Shown one piece after another: positions 44,034-61,775 of a DNA stretch of 64,000 nucleotides. The stretch's first letter is position 1. The number at the start of each line of letters is the position of its first letter. The DNA comes from an uncultured Flavobacteriaceae bacterium (lineage in GTDB: Bacteria; Bacteroidota; Bacteroidia; Flavobacteriales; Flavobacteriaceae), in NCBI GenBank assembly GCA_947495135.1, contig CANLXN010000005.1:1-64000 (forward strand), in the 5' to 3' direction. Position numbers and translations under genes: made by a program. Under the pieces are notes generated by a model that was given only the letters and a program-made list of their open reading frames with translations, was not told where the DNA came from and did no database searches.

Positions 44034-44181
44034 CGAGTCGTTTTCGTTTGTCAAAATATATTTTGTTGCTATTTGATATTGATTGATGTTTACACTTAGA
44101 ATTTTCAAGAAATTACTCAGAATTTATTTTCACCCACCCCTAACATTACGTTAAAAACAACCTAAATGTTAAAATAAACAC

Positions 44182-44189
44182 TATTTTTG
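44182..44189 (+). promoter_or_regulatory. -7 box before the island HYC_CC_PP gene
   Basis: TATTTTTG fits TAnnTTTG, eight bp ahead of the ATG at 44197. No clear -33. Confidence 0.4.
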
Positions 44190-44196
44190 TATCTAA

Positions 44197-44616: not shown

Positions 44617-44637
44617 TTTATTAGACAGTATTAATGT

Positions 44638-44663
44638 GCCCAGCGATAGCTATCGTTTAGGGC
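44638..44663 (+). promoter_or_regulatory. Hairpin with perfect CGATAGCTATCG palindrome before cusA
   Basis: CGATAGCTATCG (44644-44655) is a 12-bp palindrome within outer arms GCCC/GGGC (44638-44641, 44660-44663). It lies between the HYC_CC_PP stop and cusA. It may be a weak terminator or operator; no T-run follows. Confidence 0.4.
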
Positions 44664-44735
44664 TCGATTTGTTGTGTTTGCTTTTCTGTATTCCAGAAAT
44701 TCATTCCTTTCATAACTGTTTAATTATCAATTTAT

Positions 44736-47700
44736 ATGCTTAATAAAGCTATCAAATTCCTTATCGAGAATAAACTCGTCGCAGTTTTAATGCTCACCCT
44801 ATTTGTAGGTTGGGGTATTGTAAATGCGCCCTTTAATTGGGAAACTGGTTTTCTACCTTCAAATCCTGTAGCTGTAGATGCTATTCCTGATATTGGTGAG
44901 AACCAACAAATTGTCTTCACAAAGTGGCAAGGTCGCTCTCCGCAGGATATAGAAGACCAAATTACCTATCCCTTAACTACATCCTTGCTTGGTATTCCTG
45001 GAGTAAAAACAGTTCGTAGTTCTTCTATGTTTGGTTTTTCCAGTATCTATATCATTTTTGAAGAAGATATCGAGTTTTATTGGTCTCGTAGTCGCATTTT
45101 AGAAAAGTTAAATTCTTTACCGGCTAATTTACTTCCGGAAGGTGTAAACCCTGCTTTGGGTCCAGATGCTACTGGTTTAGGTCAAATATATTGGTACACT
45201 CTAGAAGGACGTGATGAAAACGGTAATGTAACTGGCGGTTGGGATTTACAGGAGTTGCGAAGCATCCAAGATTACTATGTAAAGTATGCGCTTTCTGGTG
45301 CAAGTGGGGTTTCCGAAGTTGCTTCCATAGGTGGTTATGTTCAGGAATATCAGGTAGATGTAAACCCTGAAAAAATGCGCCAATACAACATTGGTCTCAA
45401 TCAAATCGTAAAAGCAGTAAAAGAAAGCAATCAAGACATAGGCGCACAGACCCTAGAAATTAACCAAGCTGAATATCTGGTTCGTGGTTTAGGCTATGTG
45501 AAGTCTATTGATGATATAGAAAATGCAGTTGTTTCTTCAGAAAACTTCACAGCTCTGCGCATTAAAGATGTAGCCAATGTTACACTTGGACCAGCAACAA
45601 GACGTGGTATTTTGGACAAAGAAGGAGCTGAAGTTGTAGGTGGTGTGGTTGTAGCCCGTTATGGCGCAAATCCTATGGAAGTCATTACTAATGTAAAAGA
45701 GAAAATTGAAGAACTCAAAGGCGGTTTACCTTCAAAAGTACTTGCAGATGGTCGTACATCTCAACTTACCGTAGTTCCGTTTTATGACCGTACAGAGCTT
45801 ATAGAGGAAACATTAGAAACACTCAACGAGGCATTAACTCTAGAGATTTTAATTACCATTTTGGTCATCATCATAATGGTCTTCAACCTAAGAGCTTCTA
45901 TACTCATTTCAGGACTATTACCCGTAGCTGTGCTAATGGTTTTCATCACAATGAAACTCTTCGATGTAGATGCAAATATCGTTGCACTTTCAGGTATCGC
46001 TATCGCTATTGGTACAATGGTCGATGTCGGTGTCATACTAGCAGAAAATATGATACGGCATATGGATGACAAAAAACTTCGCCTTAACGAAAATGGTGAG
46101 GAATACACCACAAATCAAATTATCTATAATGCTACAGCCGAAGTTTCAGGAGCTATTCTAACAGCCGTTCTAACTACTATAATAAGTTTCGTTCCTGTTT
46201 TTACAATGATAGGTGCAGAAGGAAAACTATTCCGTCCGCTTGCCTTTACAAAAACAATGGCACTATCGGCATCTTTAGTAATTGCGTTATTCATAATACC
46301 ACCATTAGCAGCTTACTTATTTAAGAAAAAGAACATTAAAAACTCGTTCAATTATATATTCAATTGTTCTCTTATTGTGGCAGGTGTTATAGCAATCATT
46401 TGTGGGTACTGGCTGGGATTGATTTTAATAGCCTTTGGTATTACGGCAATACTGACTTTAAGAAATGCGCTTTCGCGAAAGCGTGCCAATCTTACAAATA
46501 TTATGATAGCATCAGCCGCTATAGTCATACTGCTAGCGACATATTGGCGACCGTTAGGCTTTGATAGAAGCATCATCCTCAATCTATTATTTGTATCTAT
46601 AGTCTGCTTCGGTATTCTAGGGGTATTCTCAGTTTTAAGAAGATATTATAGCCAGATTTTGAAATGGGCCTTAGCTAATAGATTGCTATTTCTTATCATT
46701 CCTGCAACGGTACTTATTTCTGGTGCGTGGATAATGAATAACACAGGGAAGGAATTTATGCCATCACTTAATGAAGGTTCGTTCCTCTTAATGCCCACCT
46801 CGCTACCTCACGCTGGTGTAGAAGAGAATAAAAGGGTATTACAACAACTTGATATGGCTGTAGCTACTATTCCTGAAATAGAAACTGTAGTGGGCAAATC
46901 AGGTAGAACAGAATCTGCGCTTGACCCTGCACCGCTTTCGATGTATGAAAATATGATTCAGTATAAATCTGAATATATGCATAATGCAAAAGGTAAAAAG
47001 CAACGCTATAAAGTAAATGAAGATGGACTTTTCATAACTAAAGACGGTAATCTTGTTATCAACCCTAATATGGATGTCGATAATAAAAATACGAGCTATG
47101 ACACGTCAAAATTAAGAGACCCTTTTGCTATTAGTTTTAACCACTTGATTGAAGATAATGATGGTGAATATTACAGAAACTGGAGACCAAAAATTGAAAG
47201 TCCTGATGATATTTGGAATGAGATTGTGAAGGTTACTAAGCTGCCAGGAGTGACTTCTGCGCCAAAATTACAACCCATTGAAACCAGACTCGTGATGTTA
47301 CAAACAGGAATGCGAGCACCTATGGGAATCAAAGTGAAAGGTCAAGATTTGGCACAGATAGAAGCGTTTGGTTTGCAACTTGAAACTATTTTAAAACAAG
47401 CCGAAGGTGTCAAAGAGCAAGCTGTTTTTGCAGACCGTATTGTGGGTAAACCCTATTTATTAATTGATATTAAACGTGAGCAGTTAGCACGATATGGAAT
47501 ATCGATTATGGACGTTCAGCAGATTTTACAAGTGGCTGTTGGTGGAATGCCACTTACCCAAACTGTCGAAGGTCGTGAACGCTATGGCGTGCGTGTACGC
47601 TATCCACGAGAATTACGAGGTAATCCAGACGACTTAAAAAAGATTTATGTTCCAGTAGAAAAAGGCAGTCCTGTTCCTTTAGGCGAGTTAGTAGATATTC

Positions 47701-48497
47701 GTTACGAGCAAGGTCCGCAAGTCATTAAAAGTGAAGATACATTTTTGATAGGCTATGTACTATTTGATAAGCTTGATGGTTTTGCAGAGGTAGATGTAGT
47801 AGAAAATGCCCAGGCTTTGTTTAAACAAAAAATAGAAGCTGGCGAACTAAATGTTCCTAAAGGTATTAGTTATCAGTTTACAGGAACATATGAAAATCAA
47901 TTGCGAGCCGAAAAAACGCTTTCAGTTGTAGTTCCTCTGGCACTAGCTATTATTTTCTTGATTTTATACTTCCAGTTTAAGTCTGTCACTACTTCACTTA
48001 TGGTATTTACAGGAATCACGGTTGCTTTTGCAGGTGGTTTCATAATGATATGGTTGTATGGACAAGATTGGTTCTTCAACTTTAGTTTTTTGGGAGAGAA
48101 TATGCGAGACTTGTTCAATATGAAAACTATCAATTTGAGTGTGGCAGTTTGGGTTGGTTTCATCGCACTATTTGGTATTGCTACAGATGATGGTGTCGTA
48201 ATGGCAACCTATCTCACGCAAACTTTTGACCGAGATAAACCAACAGACAGAAAAAGTATTAGGCATTCTGCGCTTGAAGCCGCCGAAAAACGAATCCGCC
48301 CTTGTCTAATGACAACAGTAACTACAATTCTCGCCCTACTTCCTGTATTAACATCCACAGGAAAAGGAAGTGATATTATGATACCTATGGCTATCCCAAT
48401 TTTTGGAGGAATGGTGATTGACATTACATCCTATTTTATTGTACCAGTATTGTACAGTTGGAGAGAAGAATTCAAACTAAAAAGAGCAAACAAATGA
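44736..48497 (+). CDS. cusA: CusA/CzcA heavy-metal RND efflux permease
   Basis: A 1253-residue proton-driven pump of the HME-RND group, exporting Cu(I)/Ag(I) from periplasm and cytoplasm. Visible: [36 protein letters not shown] near the N-terminus, PFYDRTELI, the TM4 relay [14 protein letters not shown] (Asp near 428), and the methionines of the second half. Two extra blocks explain the length over about 1050 in CusA: a membrane insert (about residues 528-637, three or four hydrophobic segments) and a hydrophilic insert (about 745-824). I recall such length in Bacteroidota homologues. The stop overlaps the cusC start by four bases (ATGA). Confidence 0.93.
   Translation: [1253 protein letters not shown]
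46468..46483. repeat. Perfect palindrome CGCTTTCGCGAAAGCG (in cusA)
   Basis: One of five copies of GCTTTCGCGAAAGC in the island, here 16 bp, translated as LSRKR within the cusA membrane insert. Confidence 0.9.
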
Positions 48498-49714
48498 AAA
48501 ATATAAAAATCATCATCTGCGTTTTGTTTGTTTCCGCTTTTGCGAGAGCACAACAATTGCAATCCTATATTCAGGAAGCCGAAAATAATAGTCCGGAGAT
48601 TCAAGCGTATAATCTTCGCCATAATATAGCTGAAGAAAAAGTGAACGAAGCAGATTGGATTCCGAATACAGAATTTAGCGCAGGCTATTTTGTTAGTGAA
48701 CCAGAAACTAGAACAGGGGCACAACGTGCACGGTTTTCTGCAAGACAAATGTTGCCTTGGTTTGGTACGATTACAGCTAGAGAAAATTATGCTAGCTCAA
48801 TGGCAGATGCAGAATATGTGGAGATTGTCATAGCCAAACGTAAACTAGCACTTTCTGTTTCTCAATCATATTACATACTGTATAGTATTACTGCAAAACA
48901 GAAAGTACTTAACGAGAATATTCAATTATTAAAAACCTATGAAAAGCTGGCACTGACTTCTGTTGAAGTTGGAAAAGCTTCTGCAGTAGATGTGTTGCGA
49001 TTACAGATTAGGCAAAATGAATTGCAACAGCAAAAAGAAGTGTTAGCTGAAGCCTATTTAGGAGAGCAAACGGCTTTTAACAAATTACTTAATCGGGATA
49101 AAACTACGATAGTAAATGTCATTGAAGAACTTTTGTTGCCTACTGAAGACATCGTGTATGCAGAGAATGCTTTAACGTTAAATCCAGAGTTGCTTAAATA
49201 TGATAAACTCTATGAATCTATTGAGAAATCGGAATTATTGAATCAAGCTGAACGGAGTCCGATGATTGGTTTTGGACTGGATTATGTACCAGTTTCTGAG
49301 CGCCCTGATTTGAATTTTAGTGACAATGGAAAAGATATTTTTATGCCTATGGTTTCGGTTTCCATTCCCATTTTCAATAAAAAGTATGATTCAAAAAGTA
49401 TGCAAAATGAGTTGAAGCAATTGGAAATAACAGCTCAAAAAGACAACCGCTTGAATGTTTTAGAGTCCGCTTTCGCGAAAGCCTTATCACAACGCAATCA
49501 AGCCCGGATAAAATACAACACACAGGAAAAGAATTTAAAGCAGGCTAATGATGCTGAAGAAATTCTTATCAAGAATTATGAAACAGGTACTATAGACTTT
49601 AACGATGTGCTTGATATCCAAGAACTACAATTAAAGTTTCAAATTAATCAAATAAATGCGATAACAACATACTATGCGCAAAGTGCGGTAGTGAATTATT
49701 TAATAACTCAATAA
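48494..49714 (+). CDS. cusC: TolC family protein, CusC-like
   Basis: Outer-membrane channel of the Cu efflux system. From ATG 48494 (MKNIKIIICVLFVSAFARAQQ) it has 406 residues with signal peptide to about residue 19; the frame is open upstream to 48458 within cusA but that start is unlikely. Tandem helical barrel repeats are seen (NLRHNIAEEKVNEADWIPNTEFSAGYF and ISIPIFNKKYDSK type). Two palindrome motifs occur in it: a degenerate one in the signal peptide (48536-48549) and a perfect one at 49469-49482. Confidence 0.9.
   Translation: MKNIKIIICVLFVSAFARAQQLQSYIQEAENNSPEIQAYNLRHNIAEEKVNEADWIPNTEFSAGYFVSEPETRTGAQRARFSARQMLPWFGTITARENYASSMADAEYVEIVIAKRKLALSVSQSYYILYSITAKQKVLNENIQLLKTYEKLALTSVEVGKASAVDVLRLQIRQNELQQQKEVLAEAYLGEQTAFNKLLNRDKTTIVNVIEELLLPTEDIVYAENALTLNPELLKYDKLYESIEKSELLNQAERSPMIGFGLDYVPVSERPDLNFSDNGKDIFMPMVSVSIPIFNKKYDSKSMQNELKQLEITAQKDNRLNVLESAFAKALSQRNQARIKYNTQEKNLKQANDAEEILIKNYETGTIDFNDVLDIQELQLKFQINQINAITTYYAQSAVVNYLITQ
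48536..48549. repeat. Degenerate palindrome copy in cusC signal peptide
   Basis: GCTTTTGCGAGAGC differs from GCTTTCGCGAAAGC at two positions. It encodes SAFARA of the signal peptide, the same frame as SAFAKA elsewhere. Confidence 0.6.
49469..49482. repeat. Perfect palindrome GCTTTCGCGAAAGC (in cusC)
   Basis: Encodes ESAFAKAL near the C-terminal third of cusC. Confidence 0.9.
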
Positions 49715-49724
49715 ACACAAAACA

Positions 49725-49979
49725 ATGAAAAATCTAAAATTAATTTTAGTAGCAATGGTAGTATTTGCAGCAGTAACAATAGTGTCTTGCAAAGACAACA
49801 AAGCCGAAACAAAAGTAGAAGCGACAACTGAGAAGCAAGGAAAGGAATATACTTCTGCCTACGTATGCCCTATGCACTGTAAAGATAGTGGTAGCGATAA
49901 AGAAGGAAAATGTGGTACGTGTGGGATGGCACTTGTAAAAAACGAAGACCATACATCAGATGGACACAAGCACGAATAG
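49725..49979 (+). CDS. Heavy-metal-binding-domain (HMBD) lipoprotein
   Basis: A small lipoprotein of 84 residues with lipobox VTIVSCKD (Cys about 22) and one HMBD: YVCPMHCKDSGSDKEGKCGTCGMAL (about 46-70) with the CPMHC and CGTCGM metal-binding patterns. The end is His-rich (DHTSDGHKHE). Same module as in CopA and CusB in this operon. Periplasmic metal sequestration or transfer to the efflux pump is inferred. Confidence 0.85.
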   Translation: MKNLKLILVAMVVFAAVTIVSCKDNKAETKVEATTEKQGKEYTSAYVCPMHCKDSGSDKEGKCGTCGMALVKNEDHTSDGHKHE

Positions 49980-50081
49980 TTACGCCAGATAATAATCAGA
50001 TTAAGTCAACCAAGACATAGAAAAGGTATTCCGACGAGTTAGTCTAAAACCTCTTTGCTTGTCCTAATAATTGTTTTAGAA

Positions 50082-50807
50082 ATGAGAATAAATAAAAATA
50101 GATTTTACCATTTAGCAGGAATGACTCTGTTGAGTTTTACAATTATTAGTTGCGTTGATTCGCCCAAAGTACAGGTAGATTATTCTGGAGCCTTGAAAAC
50201 AATAATGTCAGGAAATTTGGAGGCTACGATATCATTAGATACGCTATCAAGTAAGAAGCACCTTTATGCACTGGGAGCAGTAGAAAACTTAAAAGGCGAA
50301 ATACAAATATTTGATAGTCAACCATACAATAGTATTGTTACTAATAACAGCATAGGTATTAAAGATTCTTATACTATCAAGGCAGCTCTATTTGTTTACG
50401 CAGAAGTTGAAAAATGGGATGAGTTTACTATTGATGACATCACGACGAAAGAGGATTTAGAAAAAAGAATTTTTGAAACTGCGAAGTCTAGTGGTATTAA
50501 CGTAAATGAGCCTTTTCCTTTTCTTCTAGAAGGCAAGGTCGCTACTTTGGATTGGCACGTTATAGATTGGAAAGAAGGCGATACTGTTCATAATCACAAG
50601 AAGCATAAGGAATCTGGTTTGAACGGAAGCTTAAAGCAAGTAGATGTTGAAATTATTGGATTCTATTCAACAAAACACACGGCAGTATTTACCCATCATT
50701 CAACGAATATGCATATGCATTTTAGAACTGATGATAACGCAATTGCTGGGCACGTTGACGAATTGACATTAGGCGAACAATTGAATTTAAAACTACCTAA
50801 ACAATGA
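50082..50807 (+). CDS. Acetolactate-decarboxylase-like (BudA fold) lipoprotein
   Basis: From ATG 50082 the protein has 241 residues: signal peptide with lipobox FTIISCVD (Cys about 21), so it is exported. The body resembles alpha-acetolactate decarboxylase: LYALGAVENLKGEIQIFDSQPY (Glu73 at the GE of the enzyme) and the metal site H211-M-H213 followed by GHV (H224), exactly the HxH-x10-H spacing of the zinc site in BudA. The basic active-site Arg of the enzyme is not evident (DWHVIDW region instead). It is rich in His/Met near the metal site. It overlaps copA by four bases. Catalysis on acetolactate is doubtful; metal binding in the periplasm is more plausible. Confidence 0.72.
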   Translation: MRINKNRFYHLAGMTLLSFTIISCVDSPKVQVDYSGALKTIMSGNLEATISLDTLSSKKHLYALGAVENLKGEIQIFDSQPYNSIVTNNSIGIKDSYTIKAALFVYAEVEKWDEFTIDDITTKEDLEKRIFETAKSSGINVNEPFPFLLEGKVATLDWHVIDWKEGDTVHNHKKHKESGLNGSLKQVDVEIIGFYSTKHTAVFTHHSTNMHMHFRTDDNAIAGHVDELTLGEQLNLKLPKQ

Positions 50808-53305
50808 AACATACTTACCACATACACGGTATGACCTGCAATGGTTGTCGAAATCACGTTGAGAAGACTCTTTTACAAGTTGAAGGTGTTTCGAACGCTA
50901 CTGTTGATTTAGAACAAGCAGAAGCGACTCTTGAAATGCAATCCCATATCCCAATTGAAACTTTTCAAGAAGCCTTAAAGAATGATGGAGGCTCTTATAG
51001 CATACATAATTTAGGAGAACATCAAAAAGCGAAAGAAACAAAAGAGGTAAAACCAAAAGGAAAAGGAACTGGCACATTCTACTGCCCAATGCATTGTGAA
51101 GGCGACAAAACCTACAACAAATCAGGCGATTGTCCTGTATGCGGAATGGATTTGGTAGAAGAAGTCAATTTATCTGCAACTACTGCAGAACAATGGACTT
51201 GCCCAATGCACCCAGAAATTGTCAAAGAAGAACCTGGAGCTTGTCCAATTTGCGGAATGGATTTAGTCCCAATGGAAGCAGACAGTTCAGCCGAAGAAAA
51301 AACATATAACAAGCTGTTGAAAATGTTCTGGATAGCAGTAGCCTTTACGATTCCTATTTTCATAATCGCTATGAGTGAGATGATACTCAACAATCCGCTT
51401 TACGATGTAATGGAACAGAAATGGTGGAACTGGATTCAGTTTGGGCTTTCCATTCCAGTAGTGTTCTACGCTACTTGGATGTTCTTTGAACGTGCTTACC
51501 GAAGTATCAAAACGTGGAATCTCAATATGTTCACACTAATCGGTATAGGTGCAGGCGTGGCTTGGCTCTTTAGTGTTTTTGGGATGTTGTTTCCAGATTT
51601 TTTCCCTATACAGTTTAAAACTGAATCTGGTGCAGTTCACGTGTATTTTGAAGCCGCTACTGTAATCTTGACATTGGTTTTGATGGGTCAGGTTTTGGAA
51701 GCGCGTGCACATAGTAAAACCAATTCAGCAGTTAAGGAACTCTTGAAACTCGCACCTAATAAAGCCATTAAGGTAGTGGATGGAAACGAAGAAGAAGTTT
51801 CCATAGACCAAATCGAAAAAGGAGATATACTACGTGTGAAGCCAGGAGATAAAATTCCTGTGGATGGAAAAATTACCGAAGGAGAAACTACAGTAGATGA
51901 GTCAATGATTTCGGGAGAACCTATTCCAGTTAATAAATCTGTAGATGATAAAGTAAGTAGCGGTACCATTAACGGCAATCAATCTTTTTTGATAGAAGCC
52001 GAAAAAGTAGGTAGCGAAACCTTGCTTTCCCAAATCATACATATGGTTAACGATGCCAGTCGCAGTCGCGCCCCTATTCAGAAACTGGCAGATACCGTTT
52101 CGGGATATTTTGTACCTGTAGTGGTAATCATTGCGGTCATCACTTTCATTGTTTGGGCGATTTGGGGTCCAGAGCCAGCTTATGTCTATGCGTTAGTAAA
52201 TGCCATTGCAGTATTAATTATTGCCTGTCCTTGCGCTTTAGGATTGGCAACGCCTATGTCAGTTATGGTAGGTGTTGGTAAAGGCGCACAAAATGGTGTG
52301 TTAATTAAAAATGCCGAAGCCTTAGAGAAAATGGATAAGGTAGACACGCTTATCGTGGATAAGACAGGAACGATTACTGAAGGAAAACCTACGGTTGAGA
52401 AAATCGGTGCTTTTGCAGAACGCTTTCGCGAAAGCGAAATTCTACATCTTATCACATCCCTAAACAGTTCCAGCGAGCATCCTCTTGCCGAAGCTACCGT
52501 GAAATATGGAAAGGAGCAAAATGTTGAAATTTCAAAAACCGAAAACTTTAGCGCAGTAACTGGAAAAGGTGTAGAAGGAACAGTTGAAGGTAAGAAGCTC
52601 GATTTAGGAAATGCCAAAATGATGGAGTATGCAAATGCTAAGCTATCACCTGAAATGGAAAGTGAGGCACAGTCCTTTCAGAAACAAGGGAAAACGGTTT
52701 CGTATTTATCCATTGATGGCGAAGTTTCAGGCTATGTAGTTATTGGCGATAAAATAAAAGAAACGAGTGCCAAGGCAATCAAAGAATTACAGGACAAAAG
52801 CATCGAAGTGATAATGCTTACAGGTGATAATCACGATACCGCCCAGGCAGTTGCCTATGAACTCAATCTTGCCGACTTCAAGGCGGGAATGTTACCTGAA
52901 AACAAACTGAACGAGGTTAAAAAATTACAAGAACAAGGCAAAGTGGTTGCAATGGCAGGCGATGGTATCAACGATGCACCTGCTCTGGCTAAAAGTGATG
53001 TGGGTATCGCGATGGGTACAGGAACAGATGTCGCCATAGAAAGCGCGATGATAACATTGGTAAAGGGCGATTTACACGGTATTGTAAAAGCAAGAAACCT
53101 TAGTCACAAAGTAATGCGGAACATCAAGCAAAATCTATTTTTTGCTATGATATACAACACGCTGGGTGTACCGATTGCGGCAGGAGTATTATTTCCTTTT
53201 TTCGGAATTCTATTATCACCTATGATTGCAGCCTTAGCAATGAGTTTTAGTTCAGTTTCTGTAATAGTAAACGCACTTAGACTCAGAACAAAATCTATTA
53301 ACTAA
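50804..53305 (+). CDS. copA: Copper-translocating P1B-type ATPase CopA
   Basis: Exports Cu(I) from the cytoplasm. The 833 residues begin with HMA (GMTCNGC, residues 9-15), then two HMBDs (CPMHCEGDKTYNKSGDCPVCGMDL about 93-116; CPMHPEIVKEEPGACPICGMDL about 133-154). Core motifs: SGEP (TGE-type loop, about 368), CPC in ACPCALG (about 473), DKTGTITEG (Asp519), SSEHPLAEA, and GDGINDAPAL (about 719). The palindrome at 52421 gives ERFRESE within the nucleotide-binding region. The long multi-domain N-terminus is more elaborate than in E. coli CopA. Confidence 0.95.
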   Translation: MKHTYHIHGMTCNGCRNHVEKTLLQVEGVSNATVDLEQAEATLEMQSHIPIETFQEALKNDGGSYSIHNLGEHQKAKETKEVKPKGKGTGTFYCPMHCEGDKTYNKSGDCPVCGMDLVEEVNLSATTAEQWTCPMHPEIVKEEPGACPICGMDLVPMEADSSAEEKTYNKLLKMFWIAVAFTIPIFIIAMSEMILNNPLYDVMEQKWWNWIQFGLSIPVVFYATWMFFERAYRSIKTWNLNMFTLIGIGAGVAWLFSVFGMLFPDFFPIQFKTESGAVHVYFEAATVILTLVLMGQVLEARAHSKTNSAVKELLKLAPNKAIKVVDGNEEEVSIDQIEKGDILRVKPGDKIPVDGKITEGETTVDESMISGEPIPVNKSVDDKVSSGTINGNQSFLIEAEKVGSETLLSQIIHMVNDASRSRAPIQKLADTVSGYFVPVVVIIAVITFIVWAIWGPEPAYVYALVNAIAVLIIACPCALGLATPMSVMVGVGKGAQNGVLIKNAEALEKMDKVDTLIVDKTGTITEGKPTVEKIGAFAERFRESEILHLITSLNSSSEHPLAEATVKYGKEQNVEISKTENFSAVTGKGVEGTVEGKKLDLGNAKMMEYANAKLSPEMESEAQSFQKQGKTVSYLSIDGEVSGYVVIGDKIKETSAKAIKELQDKSIEVIMLTGDNHDTAQAVAYELNLADFKAGMLPENKLNEVKKLQEQGKVVAMAGDGINDAPALAKSDVGIAMGTGTDVAIESAMITLVKGDLHGIVKARNLSHKVMRNIKQNLFFAMIYNTLGVPIAAGVLFPFFGILLSPMIAALAMSFSSVSVIVNALRLRTKSIN
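52421..52436. repeat. Perfect palindrome CGCTTTCGCGAAAGCG (in copA)
   Basis: A 16-bp perfect palindrome, translated RFRES in copA, a different frame from SAFAKA. Confidence 0.9.
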
Positions 53306-53318
53306 ACCATCCTATATA

Positions 53319-53906
53319 ATGAAAAACAGTATTATTCTATTATGTATTATCCTTTTAGCTTCTTGTAAAGAAACTTCAAAGGAAGAACAAGAATTGCACA
53401 TTACCGAAAAAACAGAGCAAAATTCAACAAGTGCAGAACCTGCTAAGAAAAAACCATTGAGTCCGCATACAAGCGCAATGGCTATGGTAGGTGATGCACA
53501 TATTCACATAGACTATTCTTCGCCGGGTGTTAGAGATAGAATTATTTTTGGTGGTTTACTGGCGTATGACCAAATATGGCAAGCAGGAGCGCATATGGCA
53601 ACGTGGATAGAAACCAATAAAGATTTACAAATTGATGGCAAAACACTTCCTAAAGGCAAGTATGGGTTTTTTACAATTCCCTCAAAAGATGATTGGATTA
53701 TCATTTTTAATTCTAATTGGGAGCAACACGGCAAAGATGAATATGACGAGAAAAATGATGTGTTGCGATTTAAAGTTACCCCTAAAATTTTCGAAGAAAT
53801 CAAAGAACATTTAGAATACAAAGTAACAAAGACTACCGATAATTCAGGAACAATTAGCTTGAGTTGGGAAAAGGTTCTTGTTGAATTTCCTTTTGAAGTA
53901 AAATAA
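53319..53906 (+). CDS. DUF2911 lipoprotein
   Basis: A 195-residue lipoprotein with lipobox ILLASCKE (Cys about 16) and a DUF2911 domain: HIDYSSPGVRDRIIFGGLLAYDQIWQAGAHMATWIETNKDLQIDGKTLPKGKYGFFTIPSKDDWIIIFN. Function of the domain is unknown; it is often found with secreted or redox proteins. Here it lies between copA and the PepSY gene in the Cu cargo operon. Confidence 0.85.
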   Translation: MKNSIILLCIILLASCKETSKEEQELHITEKTEQNSTSAEPAKKKPLSPHTSAMAMVGDAHIHIDYSSPGVRDRIIFGGLLAYDQIWQAGAHMATWIETNKDLQIDGKTLPKGKYGFFTIPSKDDWIIIFNSNWEQHGKDEYDEKNDVLRFKVTPKIFEEIKEHLEYKVTKTTDNSGTISLSWEKVLVEFPFEVK

Positions 53907-53907
53907 A

Positions 53908-54615
53908 ATGGTCAAAAGAAAAACAGCACTTAAAATAAGAAAGACGCATCGCTATCTGGGTATCTTTTTAGGTATTCAGTTCTTGATGTGGACGATTAGC
54001 GGAATGTACTTTAGTTGGACGGATATTGACGAAATACACGGAGACCATTTTAAAAAAGAAATTCCTGACCAAACCGCATTTTCAGATTTAGTGGGAAGTT
54101 CTCAACTAAATTTTCAGGAACCTATTAAATCGTTAGAATTACTTGAAATAGCAGGTACACCCTTTTACTGGATTAATGAGGCTGTGCTTTATAATGCACT
54201 TACAGGAACAAAGAAAGAGGAACTCACAGAACAAGAAGCAATCAAAGTAGCAGAACGCTATATGTTGTCGAATTTAGAATTTGACCAAATAAAGAGAATT
54301 GAAACAGTGGGAGAACACCACGAGTATCGTGGAAGGTCATTGCCAGCCTATGAGATTTCATATAAAACAGATGAAAATTTAAAGGCTTATGTGGCGATTA
54401 AGAATGGAGCTTTTCAGACTGTACGTCATCGCAATTGGCGTTGGTTTGATTTCCTCTGGATGACACACACTATGGATTATCAAGGAAGAGACAATTTTAA
54501 TACTATAGTATTAAGAGCTTTTTCACTTTTAGGATTGATAACAGTTCTCAGTGGTTTTTTGCTTTGGTTTACAAGTTCCCCTACAGTTAGAAAAATTAAA
54601 AAAAGTTTAAAATGA
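53908..54615 (+). CDS. PepSY domain membrane protein
   Basis: The 235-residue protein has an N-terminal membrane helix (HRYLGIFLGIQFLMWTISGMYFSW, about 13-36), a periplasmic region with PepSY-like segments (EQEAIKVAERYMLSNLEFDQIK, YEISYKTDENLKAYVAIKNGAFQTVRHRNWRWFDFLWMTH), and a second helix near 205-225. The family is typically linked to metal or peptidase control. It overlaps cusB by four bases. Confidence 0.85.
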   Translation: MVKRKTALKIRKTHRYLGIFLGIQFLMWTISGMYFSWTDIDEIHGDHFKKEIPDQTAFSDLVGSSQLNFQEPIKSLELLEIAGTPFYWINEAVLYNALTGTKKEELTEQEAIKVAERYMLSNLEFDQIKRIETVGEHHEYRGRSLPAYEISYKTDENLKAYVAIKNGAFQTVRHRNWRWFDFLWMTHTMDYQGRDNFNTIVLRAFSLLGLITVLSGFLLWFTSSPTVRKIKKSLK

Positions 54616-56387
54616 AAAAGAACATCTTATATCTAGGTATTGCAGTAATCATAGGATTACTTGGCGGATATTTATTATTCGGAAATAGTACGGAGAGTAC
54701 AGGTCAAGCAGTAGATAATCACGACCATTCAGAGGCCTCTGCTAATCAAATGTGGACGTGTTCAATGCATCCACAGATTATGCAGCCAGAACCTGGCGAC
54801 TGTCCAATTTGTGGAATGGATTTAATTCCTGCCGAAACTGGTGCGGAAGGTCTAGCCGCAAATGAAATTAAAATGACCGAAAATGCCTTGGCATTAGCTA
54901 ATATTCAAACCAGTATTGTTGGGAGTGTTGCAACTTCTGACGAAGACGGTATGATTTCGCTCTCTGGTAAGATTGCTGAAAACGAAGAAAACAACGCTGT
55001 TCAAGCAAGTTATTTTGAAGGTCGCTTGGAGCGGTTGAATGTTAGCTATGAAGGACAAAAAGTAAATAAGGGACAATTATTAGCTACTATTTATGCACCT
55101 AATCTTGTAGCTGCCCAGCAGGAACTAATTACAGCAGCGTCATTAAAAGAATCGCAACCGGCTTTATATAATGCAGTACGTAATAAATTAAAACTTTGGA
55201 AACTTTCAGAAAAGCAAATTAGCAGTATAGAAGCTTCAGGAAAAGTGCGCGAGAACTTTCCAATCTACGCAACCGTTTCAGGAACGGTAGCTATGGTAAT
55301 GGCAGCAGAAGGCGACTATGTAAAACAAGGTCAACCCATTTTAAAAGTGAGCAACCTAAATTCGGTTTGGGCAGAATTTGATGCCTATGAAAATCAAATT
55401 TCGCAGTTTAAAAAAGGGCAGAAAATCAAGGTTACCACTAATGCATACCCTAATAAGGACTTTGATGCGGTAATTACATTTATAGACCCTGTTCTTAACA
55501 ATCGCACTAGAACTGTAACTGTAAGAACAACGCTTAAGAATAAAGAAAATTTATTCAAACCAGGGATGTTTGTCACAGGGAAAATAAAAGGGACAATGCA
55601 GACTTCGGAGGAATCGTTAAGTATACCTGCCAGTGCTATTTTATGGACAGGAGAACGCTCTTTGGTGTATGTTAAGACAAATCCGAATGAAGCTGTTTTT
55701 GAAATGCGAGAGGTTACTATTGGCACTCGTAATGGAGACAATTATACAATTTCTACAGGATTAGAAAATGGAGATGAAATAGTAACTAATGGTACTTTTA
55801 CAGTAGATGCAGCTGCACAGTTGCAAGGTAAAAAAAGTATGATGAATAAAGCTGGTGGACGCACAACAACAGGACACGAAGGACATACGGGAATGCAAGG
55901 AGCTATTACTGAAAAGAAACCTAACTCGGTTTCAATGATGAAAATGAAATTACCCCAAGCGTTTCAGTCAGGATTTCAATCAGCTCTTCAACCATATCTT
56001 AAAATGAAAGATGCATTTGTATCAAGTGATGCGAGTCAAGTTTCAGCTTTTGCTAAAACTACTTCGGATAAGTTAAATGCCATTGAAGCAAGTAATTTAG
56101 GTAAAATGGAAAAGTCTCATTTTTCAAAAAGTATTGAAATGTTAGACGCCATTTCTACTAATCCAGATTTAGAAAAACAAAGAGCATATTTGGTAGTTTT
56201 AAACGAAAATATGGTCGCTCTTGCGATGAATATACAATCACCTGCGGATACACTTTATGTTCAAAAGTGTCCTATGGCAAACAGTAACAAAGGTGCCATA
56301 TGGCTAAGTACAGAAAAAGAAATTAAGAATCCATACTATGGCGATGCAATGTTGACTTGTGGAAGTGTGATTGAGACTATAAATTAA
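54612..56387 (+). CDS. cusB: CusB-like efflux adaptor with HMBD and DUF3347 domains
   Basis: The RND periplasmic adaptor for CusA/CusC. The 591 residues contain an N-terminal anchor (about 4-23), an HMBD (WTCSMHPQIMQPEPGDCPICGMDL, 48-71), the adaptor core (ISLSGKIAENEENN, LERLNVSYEGQKVNKGQLLATIYAPNLVAAQQEL, FPIYATVSGTVAMVMAAEGDYVKQGQPILKVSNLNSVWAEFDAYE) and a C-terminal DUF3347 domain (QKCPMANSNKGAIWLSTEKEIKNPYYGDAMLTCG) much like the free lipoprotein at 10315. It is unusual that cusB is well downstream of cusA and cusC, separated by copA and accessory genes. Confidence 0.9.
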   Translation: MKKNILYLGIAVIIGLLGGYLLFGNSTESTGQAVDNHDHSEASANQMWTCSMHPQIMQPEPGDCPICGMDLIPAETGAEGLAANEIKMTENALALANIQTSIVGSVATSDEDGMISLSGKIAENEENNAVQASYFEGRLERLNVSYEGQKVNKGQLLATIYAPNLVAAQQELITAASLKESQPALYNAVRNKLKLWKLSEKQISSIEASGKVRENFPIYATVSGTVAMVMAAEGDYVKQGQPILKVSNLNSVWAEFDAYENQISQFKKGQKIKVTTNAYPNKDFDAVITFIDPVLNNRTRTVTVRTTLKNKENLFKPGMFVTGKIKGTMQTSEESLSIPASAILWTGERSLVYVKTNPNEAVFEMREVTIGTRNGDNYTISTGLENGDEIVTNGTFTVDAAAQLQGKKSMMNKAGGRTTTGHEGHTGMQGAITEKKPNSVSMMKMKLPQAFQSGFQSALQPYLKMKDAFVSSDASQVSAFAKTTSDKLNAIEASNLGKMEKSHFSKSIEMLDAISTNPDLEKQRAYLVVLNENMVALAMNIQSPADTLYVQKCPMANSNKGAIWLSTEKEIKNPYYGDAMLTCGSVIETIN

Positions 56388-56415
56388 TTGCACAGCTATT
56401 GCATTTAAAATCTAT

Positions 56416-56423
56416 TATCTTTG
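56416..56423 (+). promoter_or_regulatory. -7 box before the DUF6660 gene
   Basis: TATCTTTG matches TAnnTTTG, five bp before the GTG start (56428). TTG at 56399-56401 is 14 bp upstream, shorter than normal. Confidence 0.45.
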
Positions 56424-56427
56424 TAAT

Positions 56428-56745
56428 GTGAAAATCTTTAGCATCATACTATCTATTTATTTCCTAGGGCTCAATTTTATGCCTTGTGGCGATACGCTTA
56501 TTGATAATAGTGACCCAAATGAAGAAATCTCACAAATGGTAGATGTAAATCACAACCACTCTGAAAGTGATATGTGTTCACCATTTTGCCATTGTCATTG
56601 CTGTCACGTTCATACTATTGGATTTGATGCGATAGAATTTGAGCCTATAAACCTCTTGACACCAAAATTGTACATTAAACATTTTGATGGTAAGAATAAA
56701 GGCTATCATATCTCCTTACTCCAGCCACCCCAGTTTATTGCCTAA
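56428..56745 (+). CDS. DUF6660-like Cys/His-rich exported protein
   Basis: A 105-residue protein starting at GTG 56428, with signal-peptide-like MKIFSIILSIYFLGLNFMPC and a strong metal-type cluster NHNHSESDMCSPFCHCHCCHVH (about 43-65), with Cys/His alternation, followed by LLTPKLYIKHFDG and SLLQPPQFIA. The architecture fits the small DUF6660 family of Flavobacteriia. Periplasmic metal binding is inferred. It lies directly before the TonB receptor. Confidence 0.7.
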   Translation: MKIFSIILSIYFLGLNFMPCGDTLIDNSDPNEEISQMVDVNHNHSESDMCSPFCHCHCCHVHTIGFDAIEFEPINLLTPKLYIKHFDGKNKGYHISLLQPPQFIA

Positions 56746-56799
56746 AACAAAAGGGATTTACTAATCTCATATTTTTTTTAGTCAATAAAACCATAATCA

Positions 56800-58983
56800 A
56801 TGAATATAAAATCTATAAGCCTGTGGCTTATGCTATTGTTTTGTGCTTTCGGAAAAGCCCAAACAGAAACTTTAAAAATCAAGGTTCAAACGGAACAGGA
56901 AAAAGAACCATTACTAGGTGCTACTGTTTACTTCAATGAATTAGAAATAGGTGCTATTACCGACTTTGATGGTGTTGCTAACTTCTCTGATATTCCAGAC
57001 GGTACCCATAAAATTACCATATCATATCTAGGGTTTGAAACTCTAGAGACAACCATTCAATTACCCACCGACTCAGAATTGGTGTTCTTTCTTAAATCAG
57101 GTGGTAATACGCTAGATGAAGTAGTCTTACAATCATCGAGAAGTACAAGAACCGTAAAGAAAATACCAACACGCATTGAGTTCATAGGAGCCGAGGAATT
57201 AGGTGAAAAAGCAATAATGAATGCTTCTAATATTTCTATGGTTTTAAGAGAAAGTACAGGTATTCAGATGCAACAAACGTCGCTTAGTAGTGGTAACACC
57301 AATATTAGAATTCAAGGGTTAGATGGTCGCTATACACAGTTATTGCGAGATGGCTTTCCACTTTATGGCGGTTTTTCAAGTGGATTAAGCATTTTACAAA
57401 TTCCACCATTAGACCTCAAGCAATTTGAAATAATAAAAGGTAGCTCATCTACATTGTATGGTGGTGGTGCAATAGCGGGGTTAGTAAATATGGTGTCTAA
57501 AACACCAGAAGAAGACCCTCAATTAGATATAATGCTAACACAGACCCAAGCACTAGGTAGTACCGCAAATGTATTTTATGGACAGCGAAAAGATAATTTT
57601 GGTTGGACGTTGTATGGCTCTGGCCATTATCAGAAAGCTTATGACCCTGAAGATGACGGTTTCAGTAATCTCCCATTAACAAAATCATTGAGTATTAATC
57701 CAAAATTATTTTACTACCCATCTGAAAATACAACACTTTGGTTAGGACTTAACGGAACATATGATGATAGAAAAGGGGGAGATATTACAAAAATTGAAGA
57801 AGGGCAAAATGGTATTCATCAATATACTGAAAATAACCTTTCCAAGCGTCTAAGTAGTCAAGCTGTTTACGAGACAAAGTTAGACTCATTAAGGACGCTT
57901 ACTGTAAAAAATAGCATCGCTTATTTTGATAGGAGTTTGGATATTCTAGACCTAACCTTTAAAGGCAAACAATGGAATACTTTTACAGAAGCTACCTATC
58001 AAAAAGAAGGTTTAAAATCTGATTGGGTGCTCGGAGCTAATTTGTATACCACATCGTTTGATGAAATAGATAATCACATCGAAAGAGACCAAAAGGAAAT
58101 CACCTATGGTTTATTTGCAAACAATATTTATGACCTTTCTGACCAGTGGATTTTGGAAACGGGTTTACGTACCGATTACGCTCAAGATTGGGGCTTTTTT
58201 GCACTACCTAGAGTCTCGCTTTTATATAAAAACGACACTGGATTTTCAAGTAGAATTGGTGGTGGACTTGGGTATAAACTACCAGATATATTTACAGAAG
58301 AAGCGGAATTTATCAATTTCAGAGATGTTTTACCCATAAACAAGGATGCCTTGAAAGCTGAAAGGTCTTATGGAGTTAATCTTGATTTTAATTATCAAAC
58401 AAGATTATCAGATGAAATAGGATTTTCTATTAACCAATTGTTCTACGTATCTGCAATCAAAAACGGCTTGCTTTTAAATAGTACAGATGATGGGTTATTT
58501 AATTTTGAAAATGCTGAAGGTGAAATTATTAGTAGAGGAGCTGAGACTAATATTAAATTTACTTATGAGGATTTTAGATGGTTTCTTAATTATGCGTTGA
58601 TAGATACGAGATTGAATTATTTACCTGGTAATCCACAAAAACCATTAACCGCAAAGCATAATGCAGGTAGTGTATTGATGTACGAATCTGATAAATGGCG
58701 CATTGGTTATGAAACCTACTACACAGGAAAACAACTATTGTCAAATGGTTCTGAAACAACAGATTTTTTTACAATGGGACTCCTGTTAATGCGTAACTTT
58801 AAATGGGGTAGCACATTTGTAAATTTTGAAAATTTCACAGACCGCAGGCAAAGTCGATTTTCTCCGTTGGTATTGCCTCCGCACGAAAACCCAACTTTTC
58901 CCGAAATTTATGCGCCCACTGATGGGTTTATCTTTAGCTTAGGAATTATTATTAAACCTTTTGGAAACGAAGACCACGATTAA
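56800..58983 (+). CDS. TonB-dependent outer membrane receptor (island)
   Basis: A 727-residue receptor with signal peptide (to about residue 21), carboxypeptidase-like domain (about 25-105, LLGATVYFNELEIGAITDFDGVANFSDIPDGTHKITISYLGFE), plug (about 120-230, STRTVKKIPTRIEFIG and ESTGIQMQQTSLSSGNTNIRIQGLDGRY) and a beta-barrel with C-terminal FIFSLGIIIKPFGNEDHD. Unlike the chromosomal receptor at 12259 it lacks the CC in the plug. Role in uptake or export of metal complexes is inferred from its neighbours. The regulator starts two bases later. Confidence 0.9.
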   Translation: MNIKSISLWLMLLFCAFGKAQTETLKIKVQTEQEKEPLLGATVYFNELEIGAITDFDGVANFSDIPDGTHKITISYLGFETLETTIQLPTDSELVFFLKSGGNTLDEVVLQSSRSTRTVKKIPTRIEFIGAEELGEKAIMNASNISMVLRESTGIQMQQTSLSSGNTNIRIQGLDGRYTQLLRDGFPLYGGFSSGLSILQIPPLDLKQFEIIKGSSSTLYGGGAIAGLVNMVSKTPEEDPQLDIMLTQTQALGSTANVFYGQRKDNFGWTLYGSGHYQKAYDPEDDGFSNLPLTKSLSINPKLFYYPSENTTLWLGLNGTYDDRKGGDITKIEEGQNGIHQYTENNLSKRLSSQAVYETKLDSLRTLTVKNSIAYFDRSLDILDLTFKGKQWNTFTEATYQKEGLKSDWVLGANLYTTSFDEIDNHIERDQKEITYGLFANNIYDLSDQWILETGLRTDYAQDWGFFALPRVSLLYKNDTGFSSRIGGGLGYKLPDIFTEEAEFINFRDVLPINKDALKAERSYGVNLDFNYQTRLSDEIGFSINQLFYVSAIKNGLLLNSTDDGLFNFENAEGEIISRGAETNIKFTYEDFRWFLNYALIDTRLNYLPGNPQKPLTAKHNAGSVLMYESDKWRIGYETYYTGKQLLSNGSETTDFFTMGLLLMRNFKWGSTFVNFENFTDRRQSRFSPLVLPPHENPTFPEIYAPTDGFIFSLGIIIKPFGNEDHD

Positions 58984-58985
58984 AT

Positions 58986-59402
58986 ATGCAAACAATAGAA
59001 GAAGTATTAGAGTCAAAAGATATTCGTGTTACGGCAATGCGTCTGCTGATATATAAGTTTCTTGCAGAAAAAGAGGTAGCAGTAACTTTGACAGATATTG
59101 AGTCCGCTTTCGCGAAAGCAGAACGCACCACATTGTATCGTACACTCAAAACTTTTGAAGAAAAGAAAATAGTTCACCAAATAGATGATGGCACGGGCAT
59201 TTCAAAGTATGCCTTGTGTGAGAAGGGTTGTAACTGTGAGATTGAACAAGATTTACACTTGCATTTTCATTGTAACAACTGCAATGAAACGGTGTGTCTT
59301 ACGGAACATAAAATCCCTCAAATTAAAGTGCCAGATGGATTTGTTTCAGAAAATGTGAACCTAGTTGTAAAAGGGATATGTGATAAATGTAGCGGTCAAT
59401 AA
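58986..59402 (+). CDS. Fur-family transcriptional regulator
   Basis: A 138-residue Fur/Zur/PerR-type repressor: winged helix with RTTLYRTLKTFEEKKIVHQI (about 47-66), the hinge, and a metal-binding domain with HLHFHCNNCNETVCL (about 93-107) and the final CDKC (structural zinc Cys pairs CxxC). An early pair (CEKGCNCE) adds more cysteines. Directly after the TonB receptor gene and before the DUF3703/P1B ATPase pair, so it probably controls these genes in response to zinc or another metal. The palindrome encodes SAFAKA at residues 40-45 in the loop before the recognition helix. Confidence 0.9.
   Translation: MQTIEEVLESKDIRVTAMRLLIYKFLAEKEVAVTLTDIESAFAKAERTTLYRTLKTFEEKKIVHQIDDGTGISKYALCEKGCNCEIEQDLHLHFHCNNCNETVCLTEHKIPQIKVPDGFVSENVNLVVKGICDKCSGQ
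59106..59119. repeat. Perfect palindrome GCTTTCGCGAAAGC (in fur-like gene)
   Basis: Encodes SAFAKA (residues 40-45) in the regulator. Confidence 0.9.
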
Positions 59403-59448
59403 TGCACTTCCGTTGCACTAACTATTAAACTACTTTTATCCAAAATCA

Positions 59449-59817
59449 ATGGATATGAGGTTTAATATAAAAATACCAAAACATCTAAAACAGGCATACA
59501 ACAAAGAATTAGAGCTTTATCGTAATTTTTTAGAAAGTAAACAATTCAGTATAGCCTGGTATCATTTAGAAAGAAGTCACATTATAGGTCAGTCTTACCC
59601 AATTGAGCATACCTATTCACATTGGTTAATGCTGAAGTTTGGGTTGATGGAAAAGAATACGAAAGAAGTATTTGGGCAAATCATTAGATTAATTGTTGGC
59701 GGTTGGAAGTCCTTCATTAATTACATACCACTTGGCAATACAGGAGGTGCAAATGTACCACCATTAAGAACTATGCCTATTCCTGATGATATTAAAGAAT
59801 TGTTCAGTGCAAAATGA
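59449..59817 (+). CDS. DUF3703 protein
   Basis: A 122-residue soluble protein with the DUF3703 pattern WYHLERSHIIGQSYPIEHTYSHWLMLKFGLM and the end GNTGGANVPPLRTMPIPDDI. Multiple His residues (HLERSHIIG, HTYSHW) could bind metal. It overlaps the P1B ATPase start by four bases, a pairing common for this family in metal-resistance regions. Function unknown. Confidence 0.85.
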   Translation: MDMRFNIKIPKHLKQAYNKELELYRNFLESKQFSIAWYHLERSHIIGQSYPIEHTYSHWLMLKFGLMEKNTKEVFGQIIRLIVGGWKSFINYIPLGNTGGANVPPLRTMPIPDDIKELFSAK

Positions 59818-61775
59818 AAAAAAAGAAACTCAATTTAAGAGACCTAAAGCCTAATTCGGAGGAAGAACATAGTCACGATGACGGTCATAACCACGACCAC
59901 GGAAATAGTAGTGCTTTTAAAACCTACATCCCTGCAATCATAAGTTTTATAATGCTTGTCGCAGGTATTGCCATAGATTATTTTGATGCGTTACCATTTT
60001 TTGAAGGCTGGGTGAGAATCGTTTGGTATACAATTGCCTACATACCTGTTGGATTTCCAGTAATTAAAGAAGGCTGGAAAAGTATTAAAAATGGAGATTT
60101 CTTCACAGAATTTTTTCTGATGTCCATTGCAACTTTGGGGGCGTTCGCTATAGGCGAATACCCAGAAGGTGTTGCTGTAATGTTGTTTTATGCTGTGGGC
60201 GAATTATTTCAACAAGCAGCAGTGAATCGGGCGAAAGGAAACATAAAGGCATTACTAGATGTTAGGCCTAATGAAGCGCTGGTCAACCGTAATGGTGACT
60301 TTATTCCGGTTAGTCCTGAAACTGTGGAAATAGGTGAAAAGATTCAAGTACGCGTAGGAGAAAAAGTGCCATTAGATGGAATTTTACTTTCGGATAAAGG
60401 TTCTTTTAATACTGCTGCTCTTACTGGAGAAAGTAAACCAGATACGGTTCAGCAAGGAGCGTCTGTTTTTGCAGGAAGTATTAATCTTGATGGTGTTATT
60501 GAAGTAGAGACTACTAAAAAGTTCAAGGATAGTTCAATTGCCCGTATTCTAGATATGGTTCAAAATGCCACAGCAAGAAAATCTAAAACAGAGCTTTTCA
60601 TTAGAAAATTTGCTCGTGTTTACACACCTATCGTTGTATTTCTAGCGATAGGACTCACATTTCTTCCTTATTTCTTTGTTGATGATTACGTTTTTAGAGA
60701 CTGGCTATACCGAGCTTTAATCTTTCTTGTAATCTCTTGCCCTTGCGCGCTTGTGATTTCCATTCCGTTAGGATATTTTGGTGGACTAGGCGCAGCATCC
60801 CGCAATGGAATTTTATTCAAAGGAGCCTCTTTTCTCGATGCAATGACTAAAGTAAATACCGTTGTAATGGATAAGACCGGAACGGTTACAAAGGGAGTTT
60901 TTAAGATTAAGGAAGTTGTAAATGATTCCGCTTTCGCGAAAGCAGACTTTATGAAATACCTAATGGCAATGGAAGAGCAATCTACACATCCCATCGCCAA
61001 GGCTATTATGGAATACAAAGCCGAAGGCGCAGACTATGATGCCAGCGAAGTATCTGAAATTGCAGGAAAGGGGCTGAAAGGAACGGTAAACAGAAAAACA
61101 ATATTGGTTGGAAACAAAGCATTAATGACTTCAAATGCTATTGACGTTCCATCGGAGACAGACGCCATTGTTGAATCCATAGTAATGGTAGGAATAGACG
61201 GCAAATTTGCTGGCTATGTAACTATCGCAGATGAGCTGAAAGAAGATGCGCATCAAGCAATCAAGAAAATCCGCAAATCAGGCATTTCTAAAATCATAAT
61301 GCTTTCGGGCGATAAAGATTCCATTACGCAACAAGTTGCCAAAGAATTAGGTATCGATTCGGCAAAAGGCGGATTACTCCCAGAAGATAAGCTCAACGAA
61401 GTAGAAAAACTCAAAGCACAACCAGATACAAAAGTTGCTTTTATAGGTGATGGCATCAACGATGCACCTGTATTGGCTGCAAGTGATGTCGGCATAGCAA
61501 TGGGAGGTCTAGGAAGTGATGTTGCCATAGAAACGGCAGATGTTATCATTCAAAATGACCAACCATCAAGGATAGCTCGTGCCATAAAAATAGGACACTC
61601 TACAAGACGCATCGTTTGGCAAAATATCGCATTGGCTTTTGGAATAAAAATCATAGTACTTATTCTAGGTGCTGGTGGACTTGCAACAATGTGGGAAGCG
61701 GTATTTGCTGATGTTGGAGTTGCACTACTTGCAATTTTGAATGCCATTAGATTACAGAAGATGAAGTGGGATTAA
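59814..61775 (+). CDS. Zinc/cadmium-type P1B ATPase
   Basis: A 653-residue heavy-metal ATPase. The N-terminus has a His/Asp stretch (EEHSHDDGHNHDHGNSS, about 16-32) in place of an HMA domain. Core: TGES motif (AALTGESKP), CPC in ISCPCALVISIP (Cys309/311), DKTGTVTKG (Asp353), EQSTHPIAKA, GDGINDAPVLAASDVGIAMGGLGSDVAIE. The CPC plus His-rich N-terminus without GMTCxxC favours divalent Zn/Cd/Co export over copper. A palindrome at 60930 encodes SAFAKA after the phosphorylation site. Probably controlled by the adjacent Fur-like protein. Confidence 0.93.
   Translation: MKKKKLNLRDLKPNSEEEHSHDDGHNHDHGNSSAFKTYIPAIISFIMLVAGIAIDYFDALPFFEGWVRIVWYTIAYIPVGFPVIKEGWKSIKNGDFFTEFFLMSIATLGAFAIGEYPEGVAVMLFYAVGELFQQAAVNRAKGNIKALLDVRPNEALVNRNGDFIPVSPETVEIGEKIQVRVGEKVPLDGILLSDKGSFNTAALTGESKPDTVQQGASVFAGSINLDGVIEVETTKKFKDSSIARILDMVQNATARKSKTELFIRKFARVYTPIVVFLAIGLTFLPYFFVDDYVFRDWLYRALIFLVISCPCALVISIPLGYFGGLGAASRNGILFKGASFLDAMTKVNTVVMDKTGTVTKGVFKIKEVVNDSAFAKADFMKYLMAMEEQSTHPIAKAIMEYKAEGADYDASEVSEIAGKGLKGTVNRKTILVGNKALMTSNAIDVPSETDAIVESIVMVGIDGKFAGYVTIADELKEDAHQAIKKIRKSGISKIIMLSGDKDSITQQVAKELGIDSAKGGLLPEDKLNEVEKLKAQPDTKVAFIGDGINDAPVLAASDVGIAMGGLGSDVAIETADVIIQNDQPSRIARAIKIGHSTRRIVWQNIALAFGIKIIVLILGAGGLATMWEAVFADVGVALLAILNAIRLQKMKWD
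60930..60943. repeat. Perfect palindrome GCTTTCGCGAAAGC (in P1B ATPase)
   Basis: Encodes SAFAKA about 19 residues after the phosphorylated Asp. Confidence 0.9.

Follow-up and report, generated by a model that had tools for sequence, protein, structure and literature searches.

Why does a perfect 14-bp palindrome recur in a handful of metal genes, and what does it do in the genomes from which it may have come? The question is raised by a 64,000-nt stretch of the genome of an uncultured Flavobacteriaceae bacterium (the window; all positions are window coordinates unless contig C5 or C15 is named), in which the motif GCTTTCGCGAAAGC (8 of its 14 bases G or C) occurs repeatedly within an integrative conjugative element with copper cargo. 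We favor a two-layer explanation, to which as a whole we assign a probability of roughly 0.5: the copies in the window would be the signature of a donor lineage, and in the donor genomes the motif would act as a signal resembling those used for DNA uptake.

The palindrome and the conjugative element that carries it

The window contains five exact copies of the motif, all inside open reading frames (ORFs), where they are translated in three frames as LSRKR, RFRES and, three times, SAFAKA (Table 1). According to Pfam, the host genes encode an RND pump, an outer-membrane efflux protein, two metal P-type ATPases and a Fur-family protein. There is no exact copy to the left of 46469 within the window, and a scan allowing up to three mismatches returned 12 matches, whereas 100 dinucleotide-shuffled sequences gave 2.43 on average and never more than 7. 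The initial annotation of this DNA had already listed the five perfect copies, two of them extended to 16 bp, a degenerate copy at 48536 and a core at 61819, had assigned the copies to coding sequences of metal genes in these three frames, and had described them as far above chance and absent from positions 1-43,900. All of this was borne out by the scans, translations and Pfam matches, except that two copies had been placed one base off (46468 and 52421 for 46469 and 52422) and that a second two-mismatch copy, at 56845, had been missed.

The initial annotation had further described the motif as restricted to the mobile island and had proposed a genome-wide count. This count, over 4,293,109 bp in 45 contigs, gave eight exact copies and none of the reversed control pattern. 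Seven copies lie on contig C5 at 46-103 kb, all on a mobile element as had been claimed; the element is 65 kb long and bounded by 48-bp attachment repeats. The eighth copy, on C15, falls outside it. As far as can be known from sequence alone, the element has the hallmarks of an integrative conjugative element: the 48-bp repeat consists of the 3' part of tRNA-Met plus four bases, the right attachment repeat adjoins a tyrosine recombinase, and TraM and TraG are encoded between the repeats, to the right of the window. The two element copies outside the window, at C5 100550 and 103333 (L284), lie in a gene that reads as sensor-kinase-like and in a PMT-family glycosyltransferase gene (Pfam).

The cargo of the element is nearly identical to DNA of the genus Dokdonia. 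Positions 43883-52549 match contig C14 of the Dokdonia genome G315, which holds 685 motif copies, at 99.8% identity over 8,667 bp, and positions 52664-56645 match the same genome at 93.6% identity. Because the sequence beside the cargo in G315 is about 71% similar to positions 37167-41104, with tRNA-Met at the same junction, the insertion in G315 lies at the same place as that in the window. All five window sites are occupied by a perfect motif at the same position in relatives, including Dokdonia (G315, G302) and genus g11 (G010), and also in several motif-poor genomes with related metal genes. The degenerate copy at 48536 is decayed in G315 too; of eight further genomes compared, seven have it perfect and one has it with a single deviating base.

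Given that 8.7 kb of the copper cargo matches Dokdonia DNA at 99.8% identity, the window's copies are almost certainly the signature of a donor lineage, brought in on the conjugative element. The distribution of the motif, described below, suggests that transfer ran from Dokdonia-type genomes: the copper genes would formerly have resided in such genomes, which have a copy of GCTTTCGCGAAAGC every 3.6-7.5 kb, and would have been carried by a conjugative element that integrated at tRNA-Met.

Motif-rich genomes and the selected site

In a survey of 299 genomes of the family, 238 had no copy of the motif, 57 (the window's genome included) had 1-19, and four had 408, 578, 664 and 857; the reversed control pattern was absent throughout, and base composition predicts about 0.007 copies per genome (hand calculation). 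The four motif-rich genomes belong to three genera, g11, g190 and g206. The 10-bp core TTTCGCGAAA occurs 559-1107 times in these four genomes, as opposed to 34 times or fewer in the other 295, and no other genus had a variant of the motif around this core in the 10-mer survey of the 299 genomes. Genus g206 is Dokdonia, and each of the 18 Dokdonia genomes searched contained 369-905 copies, with none in the 21 other genomes searched alongside them. A genome of g11 (G242) is 79-83% identical to loci of strain BBFL7, which we take to belong to Nonlabens, and g11 was therefore taken as Nonlabens; g190 is a third genus. A scan of named genomes found the motif in at least 111 stretches, and the 80 loci listed comprise 31 from Dokdonia, 20 from Nonlabens, 4 from strain BBFL7, 12 from other Bacteroidota and 13 from other or unassigned phyla. 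Scattered matches in viral contigs were also present among the matches listed. Several of the genomes with 1-19 copies carry them in relatives of the window's metal genes; among seven low-copy loci from the survey (L009-L015), two match these genes and five do not.

The motif is a selected site in the motif-rich genomes, where either purifying selection or drive maintains it. Exact copies far outnumber near-copies: 760 kb of Dokdonia DNA yielded 187 exact copies, 26 with one mismatch and 40 with two (exact to one-mismatch about 7:1), 600 kb of g190 yielded 81, 21 and 38 (about 4:1), and 120 kb of g11 yielded 20, 1 and 1. The inner 12-mer occurs 98 times on both strands of 200 kb of G206, compared to 0.031 expected under a first-order model. 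Between Dokdonia species, 30 of 30 sites were kept at 94.0% overall identity, 23 of 25 at 87.3%, 23 of 28 at 84.6% and 21 of 28 at 79.4%, compared to fractions of 0.555, 0.268, 0.268 and 0.106 for other 14-mers along these alignments (binomial P ranging from 2e-8 to 2e-15; the four comparisons, of 92-98 kb of aligned DNA each, share genomes and are not independent). One coding site, in alignment block A, shows the perfect motif in 15 genomes of Dokdonia and 2 of g11 with DNA identities to G206 of 72-78%. Of the remaining Dokdonia genomes, one has a single change, another is truncated there by the end of its contig and the eighteenth is not covered; G031 and G190 lack the site at equal length. 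A site also lies at apparently the same place in the probable GAPDH genes of G206 and G190, as labeled from their sequence. The earlier proposal that the motif is under selection or actively spreading thus holds for Dokdonia, Nonlabens and g190, where it is genome-wide and, between Dokdonia species, conserved, and not for the window, whose copies came with the conjugative element.

The relationship among the three genera was assessed from protein sequences. The nearest matches of Dokdonia LpxK are from other genera, at about 55%, suggesting that Dokdonia and Nonlabens are not closely related. In a tree of ParA, ParB and DapB from 31 genomes, Dokdonia was joined with g190 (99/97) and Nonlabens stood on a long branch; one clade for the three motif-rich genera was not rejected (approximately unbiased test, p 0.169). 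Separate origins of the motif in the three genera were not adopted, given that this tree does not reject a single clade.

Table 1. Motif copies and element features in the window
Feature	Position	Strand	Basis or remark
tRNA-Met (CAT), integration site of the element	43889..43962	+	3' part recurs in the attachment repeats
Left attachment repeat, 48 bp, exact	43919..43966	+	right copy at C5 108933-108980, outside the window
Left third of the ~65-kb integrative conjugative element, copper cargo	43967..64000		attachment repeats, Pfam, identity to Dokdonia
Perfect palindrome, 16 bp, cusA-like RND pump gene, frame LSRKR	46469..46482		same site in G315 (Dokdonia) and G051
Decayed copy, two mismatches, near start of cusC-like gene	48536..48549		mismatch scan and homologue comparison
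Perfect palindrome, cusC-like outer-membrane efflux gene, SAFAKA	49469..49482		motif scan, Pfam
Perfect palindrome, 16 bp, copA-like P-type ATPase gene, RFRES	52422..52435		motif scan, Pfam
Two-mismatch copy near start of TonB-dependent-receptor-like gene	56845..56858		gene label read from translation
Perfect palindrome, Fur-family gene, SAFAKA	59106..59119		motif scan, Pfam
Perfect palindrome, P1B ATPase gene, SAFAKA	60930..60943		motif scan, Pfam
10-bp core TTTCGCGAAA without outer GC pairs	61819..61828		motif scan

Some further observations concern these loci. Motif pairs exactly 933 bases apart occur in four motif-poor genera (G101, G215, G078 and G087; loci L288, L289, L280 and L290), and the same pair is present in G010 (L281) and in an Aquimarina contig (L206), with both sites in the same cusC-like gene. 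The eighth genomic copy, at C15 30964-30977 (L285 9964), lies within an ORF, with a tRNA-Arg gene some 2.7 kb away, and its locus is possibly a second acquired island. A BREX BrxC-type gene is found at C5 114425-117919 (L284), some 5 kb beyond the right attachment repeat, and two similar 118-residue ORFs stand in tandem immediately left of tRNA-Met (42819-43175 and 43359-43715). When plasmids were searched with the island, the best 20 of 137 records matched only its first ~87 bases, which are the tRNA.

What the site may do

The sites share more than their 14 bases. Compositional bias reaches about 18 bp to each side, giving a symmetric context of about 50 bp that favors C at -1 and T at positions -3 and -4 and has few Cs 5' to each half; on both sides there are T/G-rich peaks at -3/-4, -7, -10 and -12/-13, and C remains scarce to about -18. 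The pattern in Dokdonia resembles that in Nonlabens, and g190 shows it in weaker form. In comparisons between species the core is 94-100% kept, whereas conservation of the flanks is at most slightly above that of the sequence around them. Copies are spaced on average one per about 3.6-7.7 kb in motif-rich genomes, and the density in the 12 near-complete Dokdonia genomes (of 18) is 133-274 per Mb. Spacing is more even than random, with a coefficient of variation of intervals of 0.38-0.78 in nine of nine samples compared to 0.89-0.98 in simulations, significantly so in four (G206, P 0.017; G314, 0 of 2000; G242, 0.0005; G010, 0.022). Intergenic sites make up 98 of 187 in Dokdonia, 12 of 81 in g190 and 11 of 20 in g11, for non-coding fractions of 14%, 9% and 13% (mechanical ORF calls). 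The Nonlabens phage P12024L (L435, 35,000 of 35,652 bases) contains neither the motif nor its 10-bp core, TTCGCGAA or TCGCGA.

From these properties we infer, at close to even odds, that the motif works like a DNA uptake, or self-recognition, signal in the motif-rich genomes. A hypothetical dimeric receptor, surface-located or periplasmic, would prefer DNA with the motif, alleles with a site would be taken up and recombined more often, and such preferential uptake would drive copies to perfection and spread them through core DNA, leaving acquired DNA poor in copies. The lower site density of the larger Dokdonia genomes, given below, counts in favor of this reading. A more specific form of the proposal is offered tentatively, as somewhat less than an even chance: the motif would be a symmetric, palindromic self-recognition signal of an undescribed kind, with a dimeric receptor and pilus-independent uptake in Bacteroidota, and Dokdonia, Nonlabens and the third genus would form one DNA-exchange community, whose exported elements would then bear a lasting motif watermark. 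Parallels exist in the excerpted literature. Pasteurellaceae uptake sequences are described there as arising by mutation and as combining a strong consensus with flanking segments at helical spacing, to which the flank peaks of the present motif may correspond (PMC1626085, excerpt), it has been claimed, and disputed, that their even spacing points to involvement in replication, repair or compaction (PMC1939737, excerpt), and in a partial text of PMC7965970 Riemerella columbina is said to prefer its own DNA and some competent bacteria to use machinery other than type IV pili.

A number of points weigh against an uptake signal. The signals described in PMC1626085 (excerpt) are non-palindromic and occur about once per kb, whereas the motif is a perfect 14-bp palindrome with symmetric flanks and is 4-8 times sparser. 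Compared to the uptake signal sequences (USS) of Pasteurellaceae and the DNA uptake sequences (DUS) of Neisseriaceae, it also belongs to a different phylum and falls short of their density of about one per kb. The pilus and secretion ATPase family PF00437 is strongly matched in 4 of 12 motif bearers and in 4 of 28 non-bearers, and type IV pili therefore do not track the motif. Among the matches listed in the literature search there was no paper on natural transformation of Dokdonia or Nonlabens. Five of the nine spacing samples were not significant alone (P 0.07-0.32), even spacing would fit a chromosome-organizing site as well, intergenic enrichment is strong in Dokdonia and only modest in g190, and the phage evidence comes from one genome. 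Conservation also has its exceptions: 5 of 14 sites present on one side only between Dokdonia species differ widely, beyond one or two positions, and turnover is greater in alignment blocks B and C, with sites in 6 of 10, 1 of 10 and 3 of 4 rows of these gappy alignments. A type IV pilus ATPase was rejected as a correlate of the motif; a PilB-like ATPase is strongly matched in G309, G315, G302 (loci L392-L394) and G242, and not in the other eight bearers tested.

The main rival to an uptake signal, a serious possibility at well below even odds, is a chromosome-organizing site read every few kb by a cytoplasmic dimeric DNA-binding protein with a role in the nucleoid, condensation or segregation. 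Both a segregation or nucleoid protein and an uptake signal had been among the ideas of the initial annotation, and both are kept here as live readings. A chromosome-organizing site would account for the perfect palindrome, the even spacing, the symmetric context and the presence of a copy in 19 of 20 stretches sampled around the g190 chromosome. The same 20 stretches, a coarse sampling, show no clear gradient of the motif along that chromosome, and larger genomes do not have more sites (12 Dokdonia genomes, r 0.26, P 0.41): there are 162 sites per Mb in four genomes of 4.3-5.5 Mb and 243 in eight of 2.9-3.6 Mb (Mann-Whitney P 0.008, for a split made after seeing the data and with rounded sizes). 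Hundreds of redundant sites would also seem to be kept too well for ordinary binding sites. A second ParB/Noc protein as the reader was rejected, as only one ParB-family match (PF02195) was found in 11 of 12 bearers, the twelfth having two. It is improbable that the motif is instead HIP1-like, a highly iterated palindrome that a DNA methyltransferase and repair would create or maintain. HIP1 of cyanobacteria is described as a genome-wide iterated, clade-specific palindrome (PMC4390886, excerpt), as is the present motif, but here the excess is confined to the long motif (TCGCGA outside TTCGCGAA occurs 28 times in 200 kb of G206, about the hand-calculated chance expectation), and at about 130-270 per Mb the motif is far below the 1000-2000 of such palindromes. 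PF00145 is present in 5 of 12 bearers, PF01555 above cut-off in 2 and PF02086 in 6, and all three are missing from G242 and G307; C5, N6/N4 and D12 methyltransferases were hence discarded as correlates, no tested family being common to all 12 bearers, and the suggestion in the initial annotation of a methylation mark gained no support from these three families.

The remaining alternatives are much less likely. A hairpin or transcription terminator acting in RNA would suit a palindrome that is enriched between genes, at a median of 47 bases from gene 3' ends in Dokdonia; this is nevertheless very improbable, with 89 of 187 sites in Dokdonia, 9 of 20 in g11 and 69 of 81 in g190 inside genes, a 3' flank that is A/C-rich and lacks a T-run, and Dokdonia intergenic sites that fall mostly between codirectional genes (75 of 94) and are not enriched between convergent ones (12 of 94). 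The many exact copies in different genes and frames might suggest a mobile palindrome that copies itself into genes in frame, an idea we find hardly credible. Homologues without the site, such as AATTTAGCGAAAGC or GGTTTACCGAAACC, are ungapped across the 14 columns with one exception, a single-base gap, two more have a small gap just outside these columns, 9 of the 14 one-sided Dokdonia sites differ at only one or two positions, and flanks differ between copies. These alignments support an origin of copies by point substitution, not insertion; they agree with the gradual selection favored in the initial annotation and give no backing to the insertion-type repeat it had also raised. Finally, the clustering of copies in metal genes of the window's genome could point to a function in the copper island only, for example as a metal-regulator operator. 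The hundreds of copies in unrelated genes of the donors, together with the two further element copies in genes that do not look metal-related, leave this next to no probability.

Comparison with known systems

Among the matches listed, with subscription papers and preprints outside the scope of the search, we found no report of GCTTTCGCGAAAGC; a search by the motif's letters returned one paper with 11 of them, by title and abstract an unrelated structure paper. That a 14-bp palindrome is strongly conserved, evenly spaced and present in up to about 900 copies per genome of cultured marine genera implies the existence of a DNA-reading system, for which we found no description in the literature searched, and it makes natural transformation or chromosome organization in these Bacteroidota directly testable. 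The motif may in addition serve as a natural watermark, as 57 of 299 genomes have 1-19 copies where almost none are expected.

Unlike mobile palindromic repeats such as REP and RPE, the sites are not inserted sequence. Like HIP1 and the alternate highly iterated palindromes of cyanobacteria, the motif is an iterated, clade-specific palindrome; unlike them, it is 14 bp long, several times sparser, less GC-rich and not accompanied by a common methyltransferase among the three families. The chromosome sites of Noc, ParB and MatP are palindromic, of similar length and of strong consensus, but the motif has far more copies (about 400-900), shows no clear gradient in the one genome sampled and comes without an additional ParB-family gene in 11 of the 12 bearers. 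With the USS and DUS it shares clade specificity, hundreds of copies of which many lie in genes, an excess of perfect copies over near-copies, an origin by substitution, the even spacing that others have claimed for those signals and, possibly, flanking segments.

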